Source of the DNA: Azospirillum lipoferum 4B | Lineage (GTDB): Bacteria; Pseudomonadota; Alphaproteobacteria; Azospirillales; Azospirillaceae | Direction of reading: 5' to 3' | Length of the DNA: 64,000 bases | NCBI RefSeq assembly: GCF_000283655.1 | Contig: NC_016586.1 | Location: 635,001-699,000 of the forward strand | In this document: positions 56,935 through 62,673 of the stretch, piece by piece | Layout of the letters: each line of letters opens with the position of its first letter | Numbering within the stretch: the stretch's first letter is position 1 | Translations under genes and position numbers: made by a program | Notes under the pieces: generated by a model | What the model was told of the DNA's origin: nothing | Databases searched by the model: none | Seen by the model: only the letters and a program-made list of their open reading frames with translations

Positions 56935-57008
56935 CGGTCGGCACTGTGAAGCGGACGGGTCCCTTGATATGGACCGCCGGCAGGCACCGTCCACCGCAGG
57001 GACCAACA

Positions 57009-57674
57009 TCACCCCATCCCGCCCATCCGGCGCAGCCCCCCGGTCGCGACCGCCTGCAGGTCGGTGCCGCGGGCGTCGCGTGGAGCGGCCGCGGCCAGCG
57101 CGCCCAGACGGTCGGCCAGCGCGCGTTCGGCTGCGCACAGCTCCTCGCACAGGGCCCGCATCTCGGCGATGGAGGGACGCCATTTCCGGCTGCGCCGCCA
57201 GCTGCGGGCTGCGGCATCGATGACCCAGGCCGGGTATTCGCCCAGATCCTCGGCCCAGTCGAGCGCCATCATCCGCTCCACCTCGGGCGACAGCCCCTTG
57301 GCCGGGAAATGGCTGAGCAGGGTCAGCACGCGGCCGAGCAGATGGTCGCTGTCGGCCGGAGCCAGCACGGTGGCGTACAGCTCCTCAAGGCTCTGGCGGG
57401 CGAGCGTGGCCTCGGCGGCGGTGACGCCGTCCGGTGGCGACCACAACTCGATCATGCCGTCGAAACCGTCGTCGCCGAAGCGCGGGCGGCGGTCGGTCCG
57501 GCCTTGGGCGAGAAGCCGCTGGAGCGGCGGCGGCAGCGTGGCGGTCAGGCGGGCCTGCCGAAGGGGCGCCGGCAATGCCGGGTCGAAGGCAGCCGCCGAG
57601 GACGGGGAGGAGGAGCGCGGCAGGGCGGTGACAGTGGCGCTTCGCTTGGGGACACTTTTATTGGCTGCGGTCAT
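57009..57674 (-). CDS. Hypothetical protein next to the replication region
   Basis: 221-residue protein of unknown function. The N-terminal 60 residues are Ser/Ala/Pro-rich. A predicted helical core follows: LARQSLEELYATVLAPADSDHLLGRVLTLLSHFP, then MALDWAEDLGEYPAWVIDAAARSWRRSRKWRPSIAEM. No catalytic motif or membrane segment is seen. The W-x-R-S-R-K-W-x-P-S pattern recalls accessory replication or phage loader proteins, but I cannot name a family. GGGGAG lies 5 bp before ATG 57674, and the gene follows the helix-turn-helix protein by 12 bp, so the two form an operon reading away from the iteron origin. Confidence 0.7.
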   Translation of the reverse strand: MTAANKSVPKRSATVTALPRSSSPSSAAAFDPALPAPLRQARLTATLPPPLQRLLAQGRTDRRPRFGDDGFDGMIELWSPPDGVTAAEATLARQSLEELYATVLAPADSDHLLGRVLTLLSHFPAKGLSPEVERMMALDWAEDLGEYPAWVIDAAARSWRRSRKWRPSIAEMRALCEELCAAERALADRLGALAAAAPRDARGTDLQAVATGGLRRMGGMG

Positions 57675-57686
57675 CGGTCTCCCCTT

Positions 57687-58517
57687 TTACGACCAGGAGG
57701 GAGTGGCTGCGCGCTGGCGCAGTTCCGCGGCGGCGGCGGCCCAGGCGCCCAGCCGCTGTTCGGCTACGGCGGCGGCGGCGGATGGGCGGGCGGGCGGGGT
57801 GCTCGTTGCCGCAGAGGGGCGGTTGCGGACGACCGGGGCCTTGCCCACCGCGGCATCCTGCGCCAGCCAGGCCCGCCAGGCGGAGGAGATGTCGCGGTAG
57901 CGGTAGCCATGGGCACGGCAGCGCAGGATGAACCCTTCGACATGGCGGCCGAGGTCGATTTCGGCATGGCGGGCCTTGGCCCAGGCGAGGTCGTCGGCGG
58001 TCGGCATCCAATCCTCCGGAACCGTTTGCGCCTGACCGCGCCCGCCCGAAGCGTGCGAGTCCGGAATCTGTTTGGAATGGACCTGTTCCTGACTCGCCGG
58101 CGGACAGGGGCTGTGCATGTCCGAGTCATCCCTGTCGGCAGGCTGGACAGGGCGAGACGAGACGGACTCCCGGCCGGACTCTTCGGCGGCATCGACCGGG
58201 GTGAAGCGCAGGCGGTAGAGGCAGGACAGGCGGGCGCCGTCGCGGCCGCGGCGGTGTTCGACGCCGACCAGCCCGATGTCGCTCAGGCCCTGGATGATGC
58301 GGTTGATGGTGGGGCGCGAGCGCTTCAGCTTGGCGGCCAGCGTCGATTGCGACGGCCAGCACAGCCCGTCCTCGTCGGCGAAGGTGGCGAGCGCGGCCAG
58401 GACGGCGAAGCCGTCGGCCTCCAGGCCGGGATGGTCCAGCCACCAGGCGGGAATCCGTCCCCACCGTCTGGTATCCGGGGGATTTGCCGCCGATGTGGAT
58501 GGCGTCGGTGTGAGCAT
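57687..58517 (-). CDS. Winged-helix protein with DnaT-like C-terminal segment (putative replication accessory)
   Basis: 276-residue protein. The N-terminal winged helix-turn-helix (GFAVLAALATFADEDGLCWPSQSTLAAKLKRSRPTINRII) is of the type found in plasmid and phage replication/helper proteins. After a disordered linker, DWMPTADDLAWAKARHAEID and FILRCRAHGYRYRDISSAWRAWL resemble the single-strand-binding domain of DnaT-like primosomal proteins. GGAG lies 9 bp before ATG 58517. It is divergent from the initiator gene across the iterons, so a role in replication or its control is inferred. Confidence 0.65.
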   Translation of the reverse strand: MLTPTPSTSAANPPDTRRWGRIPAWWLDHPGLEADGFAVLAALATFADEDGLCWPSQSTLAAKLKRSRPTINRIIQGLSDIGLVGVEHRRGRDGARLSCLYRLRFTPVDAAEESGRESVSSRPVQPADRDDSDMHSPCPPASQEQVHSKQIPDSHASGGRGQAQTVPEDWMPTADDLAWAKARHAEIDLGRHVEGFILRCRAHGYRYRDISSAWRAWLAQDAAVGKAPVVRNRPSAATSTPPARPSAAAAVAEQRLGAWAAAAAELRQRAATPSWS

Positions 58518-58632
58518 GGGGGAAACTCCGCGAAAATACGGGACCGGCATGGATGGGCCGGCGAACTTGCGCGAAGGATTCCGCCGCTTGGCGCAGCCGT
58601 CGAATCGCGGGCAAAAGGGACCGAGTCGGTTG

Positions 58633-58715
58633 TGTCCCCTTCGCCCGCGCTTGTGTCCCATCGGCCCGCGCCTGTGTCGTCCCTGGTCGCGGATATGTCC
58701 CTTTTGGTCGCGTTG
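58633..58715 (+). repeat. Iteron array, forward cluster
   Basis: Four direct repeats start at 58633, 58654, 58675 and 58696, pitch 21 bp; the third copy is diverged. Further forward copies with wider spacing follow to 59057, the best conserved being 58885-58904 and 58981-59000. Confidence 0.85.
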
Positions 58716-59136
58716 GGCTTGCGAATCGGATCCGATCCCGTTTGCCCGCGCTTTGCCGGAGACCGGCGGCACCGGCGCCGCCGCAGGCTGTCCCGCTTGC
58801 CCGCGTTTCGCGGCCATGATCCGCGGTCCGGATCGCGGACTGTTTCGCGGAAGACGGCCGCTGGCCAGCCTCGCCGGCCGGATCTGTCCCATTTGCCCGC
58901 GCTTCGCGGTTCGGCCGGCCGCATCACGGAATTTGATGTGTCCCTAATGCTCGCGTTTGGGAGTCCTCCGGTGCCGGGACTGTCCCGTTTGCTCGCGCTT
59001 CGTGGCCCCATGGCGGGAATCCGCGCCCCCGAGTCTCTGTCCCATTTGCTCGCGTTTCGCCGAACCGCCGCGCGATTCGCACGGTTCCGACCCGACAGAT
59101 GCCCGTGGAGCGGCGCCATCCGATGGCCCGAGGACG

Positions 59137-59198
59137 AAGCGCGGGCATTCGGGATACAGCTGCGGGCATTTCCTACACAAGCGCGGCCAAACGGGACA
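59137..59198 (-). repeat. Iteron array, inverted cluster before the initiator gene
   Basis: Three copies at 59137, 59158 and 59179 have pitch 21 bp and are oriented opposite to the main array. The last is nearly perfect (AAGCGCGGCCAAACGGGACA). They end 85 bp before the initiator ATG and are well placed for autoregulation by Rep. Confidence 0.75.
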
Positions 59199-59283
59199 CA
59201 GGCCTGCAGACGGATTCGGCCCTGCCGGTTGCCACTGTCCGAGGCCAGACCCTATCGTGCCGTTTGGCGAGGAGGGATGAGCC

Positions 59284-60474
59284 ATGAGCAAGGCGAACGC
59301 GGTCCAGCTGACTCTGTTTGAGATGGAGGACCGCAGTCAGTCCCATATGATCGCGCTTTACGACACGGCGCCGCGATTCGTCTTCGTGTCGAAAGGCCGG
59401 GGGACCGAGCCGGAGCTGCCGGCCGCCAACGCCTTCGTCCAGTCGGTCCACAAGGAGTTTCCCTTCAAGGACGCCCTGTTCACGCTGACCCTGCAGCCCG
59501 CCCGCATCTATCGCCCGGCCAAGCCCGGCCCCGGCGAGGATCCGGCCGACAAGCGCATGGTCGAGTATGAGGTGTTCCCGTCCGAGCGCGAGCAGATCGT
59601 CGAGCAGGTGGTGCGCCGCCTCGCCATGGACCGCTCGCGCCTGTCGCTGATGGGCGACAAGCAGGACCGGGTGCGCGTCCATTTCTCGCTTTATGAGATC
59701 CGGCGGGAGCTGCGCGCGGTCAACCGCACCATGGACACGGCGGAAATCCGCGAGGCGCTGGAGATCCTGGCCCGTACCCGCATGATCATCAGCAAGGTGC
59801 CGGAGAACGGCCGCAAGTCGGCGCGGCCGGTGCTGGAATCCTCGGTCTTCCCCACGCTCTACATCCGCCCGCGCACCGGCGAAGGCGGCGAGGAGGACGA
59901 GAACGACACCTATCTGGAGTTCAACGCGCTGGTCGCCTCGGCCATCCGCAACCTGGAATTCAAGCCGATCTCCTACCAGTGGATCATGCGGCTGAAGAGC
60001 CCGGTGGCGCGCTGGCTCTACAACCGGCTGTCCATCGAGTATGGCGACCTCGATCTGGCCCGCCTGCCCGACGGGGTGCACAGCGTGCCGCCGATGATCC
60101 TGTCGGCCGACGACATCATCAACAACAGCGGCATGAACGAGTGGAGCCGGCGGCGCGACACGCTGCGCACGGTGACCCTGGCCGTCGATTCCCTGGTCGA
60201 GGAGGGCATTCTCGACCGGGTGGAGAAGACGGTGTCGAAGGACGGCCGGCGCATCAACGACATCGAATACATCATGATGCCGAGCCAGAAATTCCTGGAT
60301 CAGGTCCGCCGCGGCAACGACGTGCAGGAGGCGAACGCCGCCACCTACCGCGCCATCGCCGGCAGCGACGAGCGCCCGAAGGAGTTCCTGCCCATCACCC
60401 CCGGCCAGAGCGTCGAGGTCCGCCGCCGCCGCGGCAACCTGCTGGGCGCCCGCTCCGGCCAGGGCGAAGGCTGA
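59284..60474 (+). CDS. Plasmid/chromid replication initiation protein
   Basis: 396-residue initiator of the alphaproteobacterial Rep type, expected to bind the iterons upstream and open the origin. The N-terminus (MSKANAVQLTLFEMEDRSQSHM) precedes a winged-helix region with RRLAMDRSRLSLMGDKQDRVRVHFSLYEI and a second one including FKPISYQWIMRLKSPVARWLYNRLSIEYGDL, followed by SADDIINNSGMNEWSRRRDTL. GAGGAGGG lies about 10 bp before the ATG. No parA/parB genes are adjacent in this window. The identification rests on overall family resemblance and on the iteron array directly upstream. Confidence 0.82.
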   Translation: MSKANAVQLTLFEMEDRSQSHMIALYDTAPRFVFVSKGRGTEPELPAANAFVQSVHKEFPFKDALFTLTLQPARIYRPAKPGPGEDPADKRMVEYEVFPSEREQIVEQVVRRLAMDRSRLSLMGDKQDRVRVHFSLYEIRRELRAVNRTMDTAEIREALEILARTRMIISKVPENGRKSARPVLESSVFPTLYIRPRTGEGGEEDENDTYLEFNALVASAIRNLEFKPISYQWIMRLKSPVARWLYNRLSIEYGDLDLARLPDGVHSVPPMILSADDIINNSGMNEWSRRRDTLRTVTLAVDSLVEEGILDRVEKTVSKDGRRINDIEYIMMPSQKFLDQVRRGNDVQEANAATYRAIAGSDERPKEFLPITPGQSVEVRRRRGNLLGARSGQGEG

Positions 60475-60579
60475 TCCGGCCTCGGCCCATCCTGAAGCGC
60501 TGCCGCCGTCAGCCTTTGCAGCACGCCCGTCCTGCACTACAGTGAAACGGCGATTCAGCTGCGAAGGTTTTCCCGTTTC

Positions 60580-62673
60580 ATGGCCGATCTGTTCTTCAGC
60601 TACCCGCGTGCGGACGCAGAGCGGGTGCGCCCGCTGGTCGAAGAGTTGCGGCGCCTCGGCCTGTCCGTCTGGTTCGACGAGCATGAAATCGGCGACAGCG
60701 ACGCGATCACCCGGTCCATCGTCGAGGGGCTGGGGCAGGCGCGCATGCTGGTGGCGTGGTACTCGCGGGCCTATACGCGCTCCCGCCCCTGCCAATGGGA
60801 ACTGACCGCCGCCTATCTCGCCGCCCAGCATGAGGGGGGCGATCTGTCGCGCCGCATCCTGGTCGTCAACCCGGAACAGGGCGGCGACCACATCCAGCCC
60901 GTCGAACTGCGCGACCGCCTGTATCTGGAAGGCGGGACCGACGCGGTGGCCGATCTGGCCGGGCGCATCGCCCGGCGCCTGGACCGCGCCGCGACCTGGA
61001 TCGGCGACATCCGCCCCTTGCAGGCGCCGTCCTGGCTGGCCGGCCAGCGGCGCATCGGGTCCAACCGCTTCGTCGGCCGCGTGCCGGATCTGTGGAGCGT
61101 CCATAGCGGGCTGACCGCCGCCGCCGTCACCGTCATCACCGGCGCGCGGCCCGGCGGCGATCTGGTGCAGGTGCAGGGCATGGGCGGCATCGGCAAGTCG
61201 ATGCTGGCCGAGGAATACGCGCTGCGCTTCGGCGCCGCCTATCCCGGCGGCATCGTCTGGCTGTCCGCAGCCCGTACCGGCGCGGTGGCCGCGGACGGGC
61301 GCGAGGCGGAGGCGGAAGGCAGCGCCGGCCGGCACCTGTTCCAACTGGCCCGGAGCTTCGGCCTGCCCGTGCAGGGGATGGAGCCGTCTGCCGTCGCCGC
61401 CCAGGTCGGCCGCCATCTGGAAGCGCTCGGCAAGCCCTATCTGTGGATCGTCGACGACCTGCCGAGCGATGCCAATGCCGCGGTGCTGGCCCATTGGACG
61501 GCGCCCAGCACCAACGGCCGCACCCTCGTCACCACGCGCGGCACCCGTCTGGACGGCTGCGGGACGATCCACCGGCTCGACGTGCTGACGACGGAGGACG
61601 CTTTCCGCCTGCTCACCAGCCGCCAGCCGCCGCGCAACGAGGCCGAACGGACAATGGCGGCGGAGATCGTGACGGAGCTGGGCCGTCATGCTCTGGCCGT
61701 GGACGTCGCCGGTGCTGCTCTGCGCGCCATGAGCTATGCCGAGTTTCTGAAAGAACTGCGCAACCCCGGTGCCGACGCGCTGGCCCTGATGGAGGAGTTG
61801 GCGGGCGAGCTTCCCAACGGCCACCATCCCGGCATCGCCGTCACCCTGCTGCAAAGCATCGGCCGCCTCCGGCCGGAGGGCGTGCTGGTGCTGCAACTCG
61901 CCTCCCTCCTGGCGTCCGACCCGATCCCGACGAAGTACATCGCGGATGTCCTGGCGGAGCATGCGGGCGACGAGGCCGCCGGTCGCCGGATTGCCCTGCT
62001 GGAGATTCAGGCCGCCGAAGCGGAAGCGCTGGTGGACCGCCTTGGCCCGGAGGAGGTGACGGTCCACATCCTGACCGCCCGCACGATGCGCCAGCACGCT
62101 GCCGCCTCCGAAGACTTGCGGGCGGCGGCGGTGAGGGTGATGAACCGGGTGATGCCGAGGGCGGCAGATATTCGAGAGCATGCCACGCTCGAACCGCTGA
62201 TCGGGCATGTCCGCACGCTGACCGAGTCGGTGGAGGATGAGGAAACCGCCATGCTTCTGAGCTGGTTGGGCAGGTATGAGGATGAGCGTGGAGCTTACGG
62301 CCCGGCCATCGCGGTTCGGCAGAGGCAGCTTGACGCCGTGCGCCATTTATACGGCGAGGAGCACCCGAACACCTTGGTCTCCATGGGCAATCTCGCTTCG
62401 ACTCTCTGGAAGCAAGGTGATCTCGCCGGGGCGCGGGTATTGGAGGAACAGGTCTTGGCCGTCCGCCGCCGCGTGTTCGGCGAGGAGCACCCGCAGACCT
62501 TGACCTCCATGAACAATGTCGCTGAGACCTTGAGCAGCCAAGGCGATCTCGCCGGGGCGCGGGAGCTTCAGGAACAGGTTTTGGTAGTCCGCCGCCGCGT
62601 GCTCGGCGAGGAGCACCCGAACACCCAGGCTCTCCAAATTGGCCTCGACTTTGTCACCTCCCGCGCCCGCTGA
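60580..62673 (+). CDS. TIR-NB-ARC-TPR protein (STAND NTPase, putative antiphage immunity)
   Basis: 697-residue multidomain protein. A TIR domain (residues 1-135; DLFFSYPRADAERVRPLVEEL, VWFDEHEIGDS, and CQWELTAAYL with the candidate NADase Glu74) is followed by an NB-ARC/STAND ATPase (about 155-470; Walker A GMGGIGKSML near 200, Walker B YLWIVDDL near 288). A winged-helix-like region follows. Three TPR units of the kinesin-light-chain type from about 570 repeat GEEHPNT at exactly 126-bp intervals. By family knowledge, TPRs sense a trigger, STAND oligomerises and TIR depletes NAD+. No partner gene is adjacent, so it may act alone. The ribosome site before ATG 60580 is weak. Confidence 0.85.
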   Translation: MADLFFSYPRADAERVRPLVEELRRLGLSVWFDEHEIGDSDAITRSIVEGLGQARMLVAWYSRAYTRSRPCQWELTAAYLAAQHEGGDLSRRILVVNPEQGGDHIQPVELRDRLYLEGGTDAVADLAGRIARRLDRAATWIGDIRPLQAPSWLAGQRRIGSNRFVGRVPDLWSVHSGLTAAAVTVITGARPGGDLVQVQGMGGIGKSMLAEEYALRFGAAYPGGIVWLSAARTGAVAADGREAEAEGSAGRHLFQLARSFGLPVQGMEPSAVAAQVGRHLEALGKPYLWIVDDLPSDANAAVLAHWTAPSTNGRTLVTTRGTRLDGCGTIHRLDVLTTEDAFRLLTSRQPPRNEAERTMAAEIVTELGRHALAVDVAGAALRAMSYAEFLKELRNPGADALALMEELAGELPNGHHPGIAVTLLQSIGRLRPEGVLVLQLASLLASDPIPTKYIADVLAEHAGDEAAGRRIALLEIQAAEAEALVDRLGPEEVTVHILTARTMRQHAAASEDLRAAAVRVMNRVMPRAADIREHATLEPLIGHVRTLTESVEDEETAMLLSWLGRYEDERGAYGPAIAVRQRQLDAVRHLYGEEHPNTLVSMGNLASTLWKQGDLAGARVLEEQVLAVRRRVFGEEHPQTLTSMNNVAETLSSQGDLAGARELQEQVLVVRRRVLGEEHPNTQALQIGLDFVTSRAR
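62353..62625 (+). repeat. 126-bp tandem repeat encoding TPR units
   Basis: Units begin at 62353, 62479 and 62605 with GGCGAGGAGCACCCG and code for 42-residue TPRs; the third is cut short by the stop codon. High nucleotide identity between units suggests recent expansion. Confidence 0.8.

Follow-up and report, generated by a model that had tools for sequence, protein, structure and literature searches.

How a large Azospirillum replicon starts and times its own replication is the question raised by the gap at positions 58518–59283 of the window (the whole 64-kb stretch of DNA analysed here). We consider it highly likely that this gap is an iteron-type origin together with its control region, belonging to a large Azospirillum replicon of the chromid or megaplasmid class; origin activity, binding by the neighbouring Rep protein and control by methylation are what we infer for it. 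Beyond the single locus, the gap very probably stands for a family of large replicons in Alphaproteobacteria that has been under-described, whose iteron origin region is real and well conserved and holds a strong excess of CcrM sites.

A confined array of 20-bp repeats precedes rep

The initial annotation had described 20-bp repeats upstream of the rep gene, and both a weight-matrix scan and an unseeded motif search of the gap bore them out at the same positions. Twelve strong 20-mers, nine of them forward and three inverted, were returned for the gap by the scan of the 64-kb window, along with one forward copy inside rep; all 13 score 20.2–32.3 bits, while the best match outside 58400–59500 reaches 9.9 bits. 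The identical 13 sites were recovered de novo with a motif score of 237, compared with a maximum of 78 across 40 dinucleotide-shuffled versions of the gap and of 112 across 30 further stretches of the window, each 966 bp long.

On the side away from rep the array begins with a single opposed copy on the minus strand (58603–58622), overlapped by a GAATC. This is followed by a distal cluster on the plus strand (58633–58652, 58654–58673, 58675–58694, and 58696–58715), by more widely spaced forward copies (58734–58753, 58789–58808, 58885–58904, 58939–58958, 58981–59000, and 59038–59057), and by a rep-proximal cluster on the minus strand (59137–59156, 59158–59177, and 59179–59198). Exact 21-bp runs had been claimed for the copies starting at 58633/58654/58675/58696 and at 59137/59158/59179. 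The pitch itself stands, because the copies at 58675 and 59158 are still recognisable in relatives (the former in L001 and L002, the latter in L002), but in the window each run includes one of these two decayed copies, which fall below threshold. The same decayed positions can be made out in plasmid pAB510b (L002, copies at 1791/1812/1833/1854 and 2295/2316/2337) and in L064. The two 21-bp clusters form a mirror image, each facing against its neighbouring gene, and the spaced middle copies of the window array follow no regular helical register.

A sigma-70-like promoter match precedes rep at 59229–59258 (plus strand; one found versus 0.1 expected, partly conserved in the clade) and is the only one found in 58450–59320. 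The inverted rep-proximal cluster, for which the initial annotation proposed an autoregulatory role that is plausible, ends 30 bp upstream of it, with no overlap. No Rfam elements were found in 57000–61000, and no tRNAs in the 64-kb window. Two smaller features belong to the same region. A perfect 12-bp palindrome, ATCGGATCCGAT, occupies 58725–58736 in a conserved non-iteron block beside a conserved GANTC, and at the iteron-like copy inside rep (59339–59358, plus strand, 25.8 bits by weight matrix) synonymous codons follow the iteron in the window's own clade, L029 excepted, and do not do so in the TGGAGC clade.

The scan for copies elsewhere that the initial annotation had proposed places the array at one spot only, in the window, in the nearest genome (G001, 6.9 Mb) and in two relatives available as whole replicons. 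Nine of the 10 exact pattern matches in the nearest genome are in the array, one is inside rep and none lies elsewhere; in the whole 645-kb and 724-kb relatives, every zero-mismatch match (11 and 9, respectively) is either in the array or is the rep-internal copy. The direct repeats therefore adjoin the initiator gene and are confined there, as in an iteron-type theta replicon.

The predicted initiator and a divergent pair of replication-type genes

The gene that follows the array, rep (59284–60474, plus strand), encodes a 396-aa replication initiator, distantly similar to the RepA of IncC plasmids and with a predicted fold like that of RepE, pi, and RctB. Assignment to a known Pfam or NCBIfam family was ruled out, as the window protein had zero matches in either; across the Rep family, weak matches to RPA (5/36) and Rep3_N (1/36) were seen, and no solved homologue was found by sequence. 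The predicted structure (pLDDT 85) gave 43 matches to solved structures with E<0.001, and all 43 were RepE54, RctB, pi, or a further Rep in complex with DNA of an iteron or unwinding element, where entries titled only 'co-crystal' were counted as RepE54 judging by the kind of crystal. E values against these four ranged from 6.6e-6 to 2e-4 with TM scores by target of 0.45–0.58; the match to RctB domains 2–3 had an E value of 9e-6 at 6% identity. The model thus points to a predicted fold of the winged-helix iteron initiators of the RepE/pi kind.

A tblastn search with Rep returned 1265 plasmid records. The closest Reps, 96% identical, are encoded by the 645-kb replicon of A. ramasamyi and by pAB510b (724 kb) of Azospirillum sp. 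B510. Identity is 54–58% in eleven other Azospirillum records, 34–38% in plasmids of Roseomonas, Skermanella, and further Azospirillum, and about 25–26% in gammaproteobacterial plasmids, of which the one record checked for type is IncC. By its size pAB510b is replicon 2 of B510 in a table of PMC3899980, and p2 is termed a chromid in passages of that paper and of PMC3245306; the putative origin in the window is of plasmid type, and its replicon may be a chromid. Collinear alignment covers most of an approximately 26-kb part of the window, against 382–426 kb of the A. ramasamyi replicon, and the window's own replicon is therefore likely to be a large Azospirillum secondary replicon of the same class as the 645- and 724-kb relatives.

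There is no repABC operon at the locus, and rep lies between non-par genes, unlike in a repABC replicon. A parAB locus far away on the same replicon had been named in advance as evidence against an origin at the array; on the two whole relatives (A. ramasamyi and B510) parAB is neither adjacent nor far, with 51 kb and 21 kb separating it from the array. At the former site (A. ramasamyi L149, 46159–50000) parAB is accompanied by a second ParA gene, 51–55 kb from the origin, and in several other family members par genes lie no more than a few kb from the array.

The initial annotation had left out a second, divergent operon beside the distal cluster, so that the array in fact sits between rep and a phage-like replication pair. 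The gene next to the gap (57687–58517, minus strand) encodes an HTH_36 replication protein (E 7.8e-11) resembling phage O and DnaD initiation proteins. HTH_36 was detected in 35/35 members of its family, PHROG replication initiation families match the protein from 7e-15, and the gene is present, in divergent orientation, in 70 of 74 loci. Its companion (57009–57674, minus strand, present in 66/74 loci) is a tentative helicase-loader protein of the G39P kind. Inhibitor_G39P matched the window protein at E 0.0018, below the cutoff, and was seen in 7/32 members of the family with E values up to 0.05; a PHROG helicase-loader family matched one of the 32 members, and a PHROG of unknown function all 32. 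The model of this protein (pLDDT 88) had no match below E 0.001 among solved structures; its only fold matches with E<0.001 were two phage proteins without a named function, while phage replisome organizers and the N-terminal domain of G39P came at E 0.7–1.1. Its identification as a helicase loader, drawn from these family and model matches, is tentative.

A conserved scaffold carries changing iterons

Using two peptide patterns we collected 55 loci from 84,980 species genomes, a search that misses relatives lacking the patterns; together with the window these make a set of 56, which includes near-duplicate strains, and its counts are not numbers of independent events. Both opposed clusters, distal and rep-proximal, with at least two copies each, are found in 49/56 loci, compared with 10/1120 randomised site sets having the same number of sites. 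Of the 56 loci, 51 have at least three copies in the distal cluster, 47 have at least three in the rep-proximal one, and in 47 a single opposed copy stands outside the distal cluster. Under a grouping rule that admits only intervals of 20–23 or 41–44 bp, cluster intervals were mostly 21 bp (n=238), with some of 22 bp (n=38), and the clusters thus keep to one helical register. The seven exceptions to the layout are L051, L066, L067, L068, L069, L072, and L074; in a further locus, L020 from Aeromonas, the upstream side extends across the start of the record, and no usable array is available.

At the chosen threshold the repeat sequence falls into 12 types, the window not counted. In a Rep tree built from 35 of the 55 genome loci plus the window, with long branches flagged, types I, Ib, II, and III occupy one branch each, and group IV does not. 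Replicons residing in the same genome shared an iteron type in none of 22 pairs (15 genomes with at least two loci), versus 347 of 1059 between-genome pairs, for which eight non-Azospirillum loci were omitted and L054, labelled Roseomonas, was retained; the permutation test on co-residents covers only these 15 genomes and ignores vertical descent. Slight cross-recognition, affecting 7–21% of copies, was seen in 3/22 co-resident pairs. The lack of sharing fits incompatibility, with vertical descent of old paralogues accounting for part of it. We conclude that the array defines the replicon type, as had been proposed from the window alone: iteron type tracks Rep clade, and co-residents have none in common. 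This suggests that a cell could hold several such replicons by changing the iteron sequence and keeping the scaffold, a point that returns in the joint reading below, and it makes these types on their constant scaffold a natural series for incompatibility studies.

Since the outer clusters face two divergent genes, and a promoter match adjoins one of the clusters, the repeats might be taken for operators of a transcription factor rather than for parts of an origin. Such operators are very improbable as the whole explanation: iteron type follows the Rep clade and is unshared by co-residents, as expected of incompatibility determinants, the protein encoded next door has the predicted fold of an iteron initiator, and replication-type genes flank the array on both sides. 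A replicon run by Rep and its iterons, as initially annotated, is instead supported by the confinement of the array, the tracking of type with clade, and the predicted initiator fold.

Customary marks of an origin are missing at the array

A DnaA box and an AT-rich unwinding element are typical of iteron-type theta origins. No DnaA-like box within two mismatches was found in the window gap, and over the 56 loci such boxes number 29, below the 44.7 expected by chance, with an exact box in one distant locus (L074). No AT-rich unwinding element was found in the window's module; a 40-bp stretch at 25–30% GC occurs only in a few loci (L023, L070, and L074). The lack of both is unusual for an iteron origin and is the main mark against simple membership of that class. 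The GC-skew switch predicted by the initial annotation did not materialise either, as neither whole relative has a clean one at the array; skew there is weak and off-centre, and it was dropped as an origin marker. Either the plasmid-borne replication pair may replace DnaA, or opening may occur elsewhere.

The second of these options would make the array an incompatibility and autoregulation region, with strand opening and the true start at another place on the replicon, and the absence of an AT-rich element, a DnaA box, and a skew switch speaks for such an arrangement. However, neither of the two whole relatives has another array of the window's iteron, and the array is next to rep and, at most loci, to two more genes of replication type. 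We regard a start elsewhere as unlikely and retain the gap itself as the probable origin.

CcrM sites are concentrated between the iterons

The GANTC (CcrM) sites of the gap had no place in the initial annotation. Nine of them occur in its 763 bp, compared with at most three in equal-size stretches elsewhere in the window (stretches beginning up to 1.5 kb ahead of the gap or up to 0.8 kb past it were skipped). The site on the HTH-gene side, 58577–58581, reads GAATCC on the minus strand and is kept in 12/12 clade relatives. The others are at 58602–58606, touching the singlet iteron (kept in 12/12), 58623–58627 (8/12), 58723–58727 (12/12), 58961–58965 (3/12), 59017–59021 (0/12), 59031–59035 (9/12), 59074–59078 (10/12), and, just upstream of the rep promoter match, 59213–59217 (5/12, each with another middle base). 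The eight non-iteron sites are kept in a mean of 7.4/12 clade relatives versus 3.0 for other non-iteron pentamers (P 0.001); pentamers of the iterons are kept in a mean of 7.3/12.

Across 55 of the 56 motif loci (L074, which lacks the HTH gene, was dropped), GANTC reaches 9.86 per kb in the gap versus 1.95 in the rest, and the difference is more than twofold in 51 loci. Seven similarly built control pentamers come to 0.66- to 1.97-fold, against the 4.85-fold enrichment of GANTC. The 750 bp before rep form the densest GANTC window in 32/55 loci, each about 11 kb long, tie for it in five, and are beaten in 18. Along the whole 645-kb relative, the gap has nine sites and no other window more than eight; in pAB510b the eight sites of the gap are equalled by the maximum elsewhere, reached in 0.03% of windows. 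A by-product of the iteron sequence was ruled out, as GANTC occurs at 1.9 per kb inside iterons versus 11.7 between them (55 loci, 70 sites partly overlapping an iteron being set aside), and so was a general property of intergenic DNA, given 1.9 per kb in 26 intergenic stretches (4725 bp within 50 kb) of one relative.

The two relatives from outside the Alphaproteobacteria whose gap could be read, Pseudomonas L019 (0.7 per kb) and Granulicella L066 (none at all), show no enrichment; neither does Lichenicola (1.4 vs 1.6 per kb), and Sabulicella and Roseococcus show only a little (3.5 and 3.3 per kb). Genes for both CcrM (E 8.5e-155 to a solved CcrM) and GcrA were identified in the nearest genome, although the GcrA search also matched in one archaeal control genome, and a passage of PMC4706337 describes GANTC as methylated in A. 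thiophilum. The locus thus combines enriched and conserved GANTC with a CcrM host as its nearest genome, the pattern expected of a CcrM-regulated origin.

The most conserved of the sites also gives some ground for an excess unrelated to methylation, in which promoter elements or host-factor sites would simply contain GANTC; this would concern the methylation part of our proposal only. The GANTC that lies some 27 bp beyond the singlet iteron (58577–58581 in the window) is found at the same place in 46/47 loci, where it is always GAATCC in one orientation, on the HTH-gene strand. In A. griseum it reads AAATC (AAATCC), and the site may therefore matter for a reason other than methylation. This explanation fits less well with the two sites (59213 and 58623) where the middle base changes while GANTC stays, with an excess that spans the whole gap, with its absence from the Pseudomonas and Granulicella loci, and with the ordinary density of other intergenic DNA in one relative. 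We think it rather improbable, and continue with methylation as the somewhat better account of the excess.

A possible mechanism and its relation to known systems

Rep very probably binds the 20-mers. We lean towards the spaced forward copies as the sites that would initiate replication, and give a slight preference to the view that CcrM methylation of GANTC would time either initiation or the two promoters. Chances look even that the mirror-placed 21-bp clusters would serve as operators through which Rep limits expression of rep as well as of the divergent HTH_36/loader operon. Equally balanced is the suggestion that the HTH_36 and loader-like proteins would bring in DnaB at an origin that has no recognisable DnaA box. 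These steps can be joined into one reading, which as a whole we put forward tentatively and hold at somewhat below even. In it, large replicons of Azospirillum and related Alphaproteobacteria would use iteron origins that had been remodelled so that CcrM holds them to one round per cell cycle. Rep would set copy number through two mirror operators, methylation of inter-iteron GANTC would gate re-initiation as Dam does for Vibrio chromosome 2, a phage-derived helicase-loading pair of the replicon's own would make DnaA boxes unneeded, and several replicons per cell would be accommodated through changed iterons on a kept scaffold.

Phage lambda O/P and SPP1 38/39 are helicase-loading pairs, and the arrangement of an HTH_36-type initiation protein beside a small possible loader is similar to theirs. 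The window pair differs in that it is divergent from an iteron Rep, and in its weak loader homology. Among plasmids, the likeness is to IncA/IncC, where the initiator is distantly similar (25.1% over 85% of the query, in an IncC-typed plasmid) and its gene likewise lies beside iterons. In PMC7433901, IncC is described with 19-bp iterons in 11 to 14 copies and a DnaA box in the replicon. The Azospirillum array, in contrast, consists of 20-mers of a different sequence in two opposed clusters, with GANTC sites, a divergent phage-like pair, and no DnaA box.

Similar to ori2 and RctB of V. cholerae chromosome 2, the locus may belong to an iteron chromid with an origin rich in methylation sites and with separate control sites, as PMC6090056 describes for ori2. 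There, the methylation sites are Dam GATC, placed within the iterons and working together with SeqA, whereas the Azospirillum array has CcrM GANTC, mostly between iterons, in Alphaproteobacteria. The repABC chromids and megaplasmids are comparable as large alphaproteobacterial replicons with GANTC-rich loci, and CcrM affects Agrobacterium ori2 (both in PMC6090056 and PMC11514494). The window locus differs from them in having iterons and no repABC operon, with parAB separate in two whole relatives; the p42d repC origin is described as free of iterons in PMC3155836.

The published picture has been a different one. The 2018 chromid review places iteron chromids in beta- and gammaproteobacteria, describes large alphaproteobacterial replicons as usually repABC and confines iterons there to small plasmids; it goes on to suggest that control by iterons, without SeqA, may be insufficient in Alphaproteobacteria (PMC6090056). 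In the 2012 genome paper, the Azospirillum replicons other than the chromosome are described, for the strains compared, as of repABC/parAB plasmid type (PMC3899980). The Azospirillum iteron family is an exception to both of these accounts, and we suggest the CcrM sites as the missing cell-cycle link for iteron replicons. Non-chromosomal replicons make up 55–60% of the genome in the strains compared (PMC3899980). With more than half of the genome on such replicons in this genus, the cell-cycle question can be tested there directly. We found no description of an Azospirillum iteron origin in the literature searched, a body that leaves most subscription journals outside its coverage; nor did we find there one of an Azospirillum origin with GANTC excess, including in passages of PMC4706337 and PMC3925955. 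Other related literature (PMC4980987, PMC13342612, PMC12456017, and again PMC3925955) is independent of the argument made here.

Some members of the family have unusual surroundings or arrays. On a Microvirga plasmid (L018, 1–5160), repC lies about 4 kb from a member of the window's rep family, a possible double replicon. The 910-kb plasmid of Pseudomonas sp. FeN3W (L019, 2216–4674) has 45 repeats, many at a 34–35 bp pitch, before a distant relative of rep. In the window, rep is directly followed by a gene for a 697-aa TIR-NB-ARC-TPR protein (60580–62673, plus strand); at this place neither of the two closest relatives has one annotated. The TIR part is similar to ThsB, and the gene may be a defence gene beside the origin.
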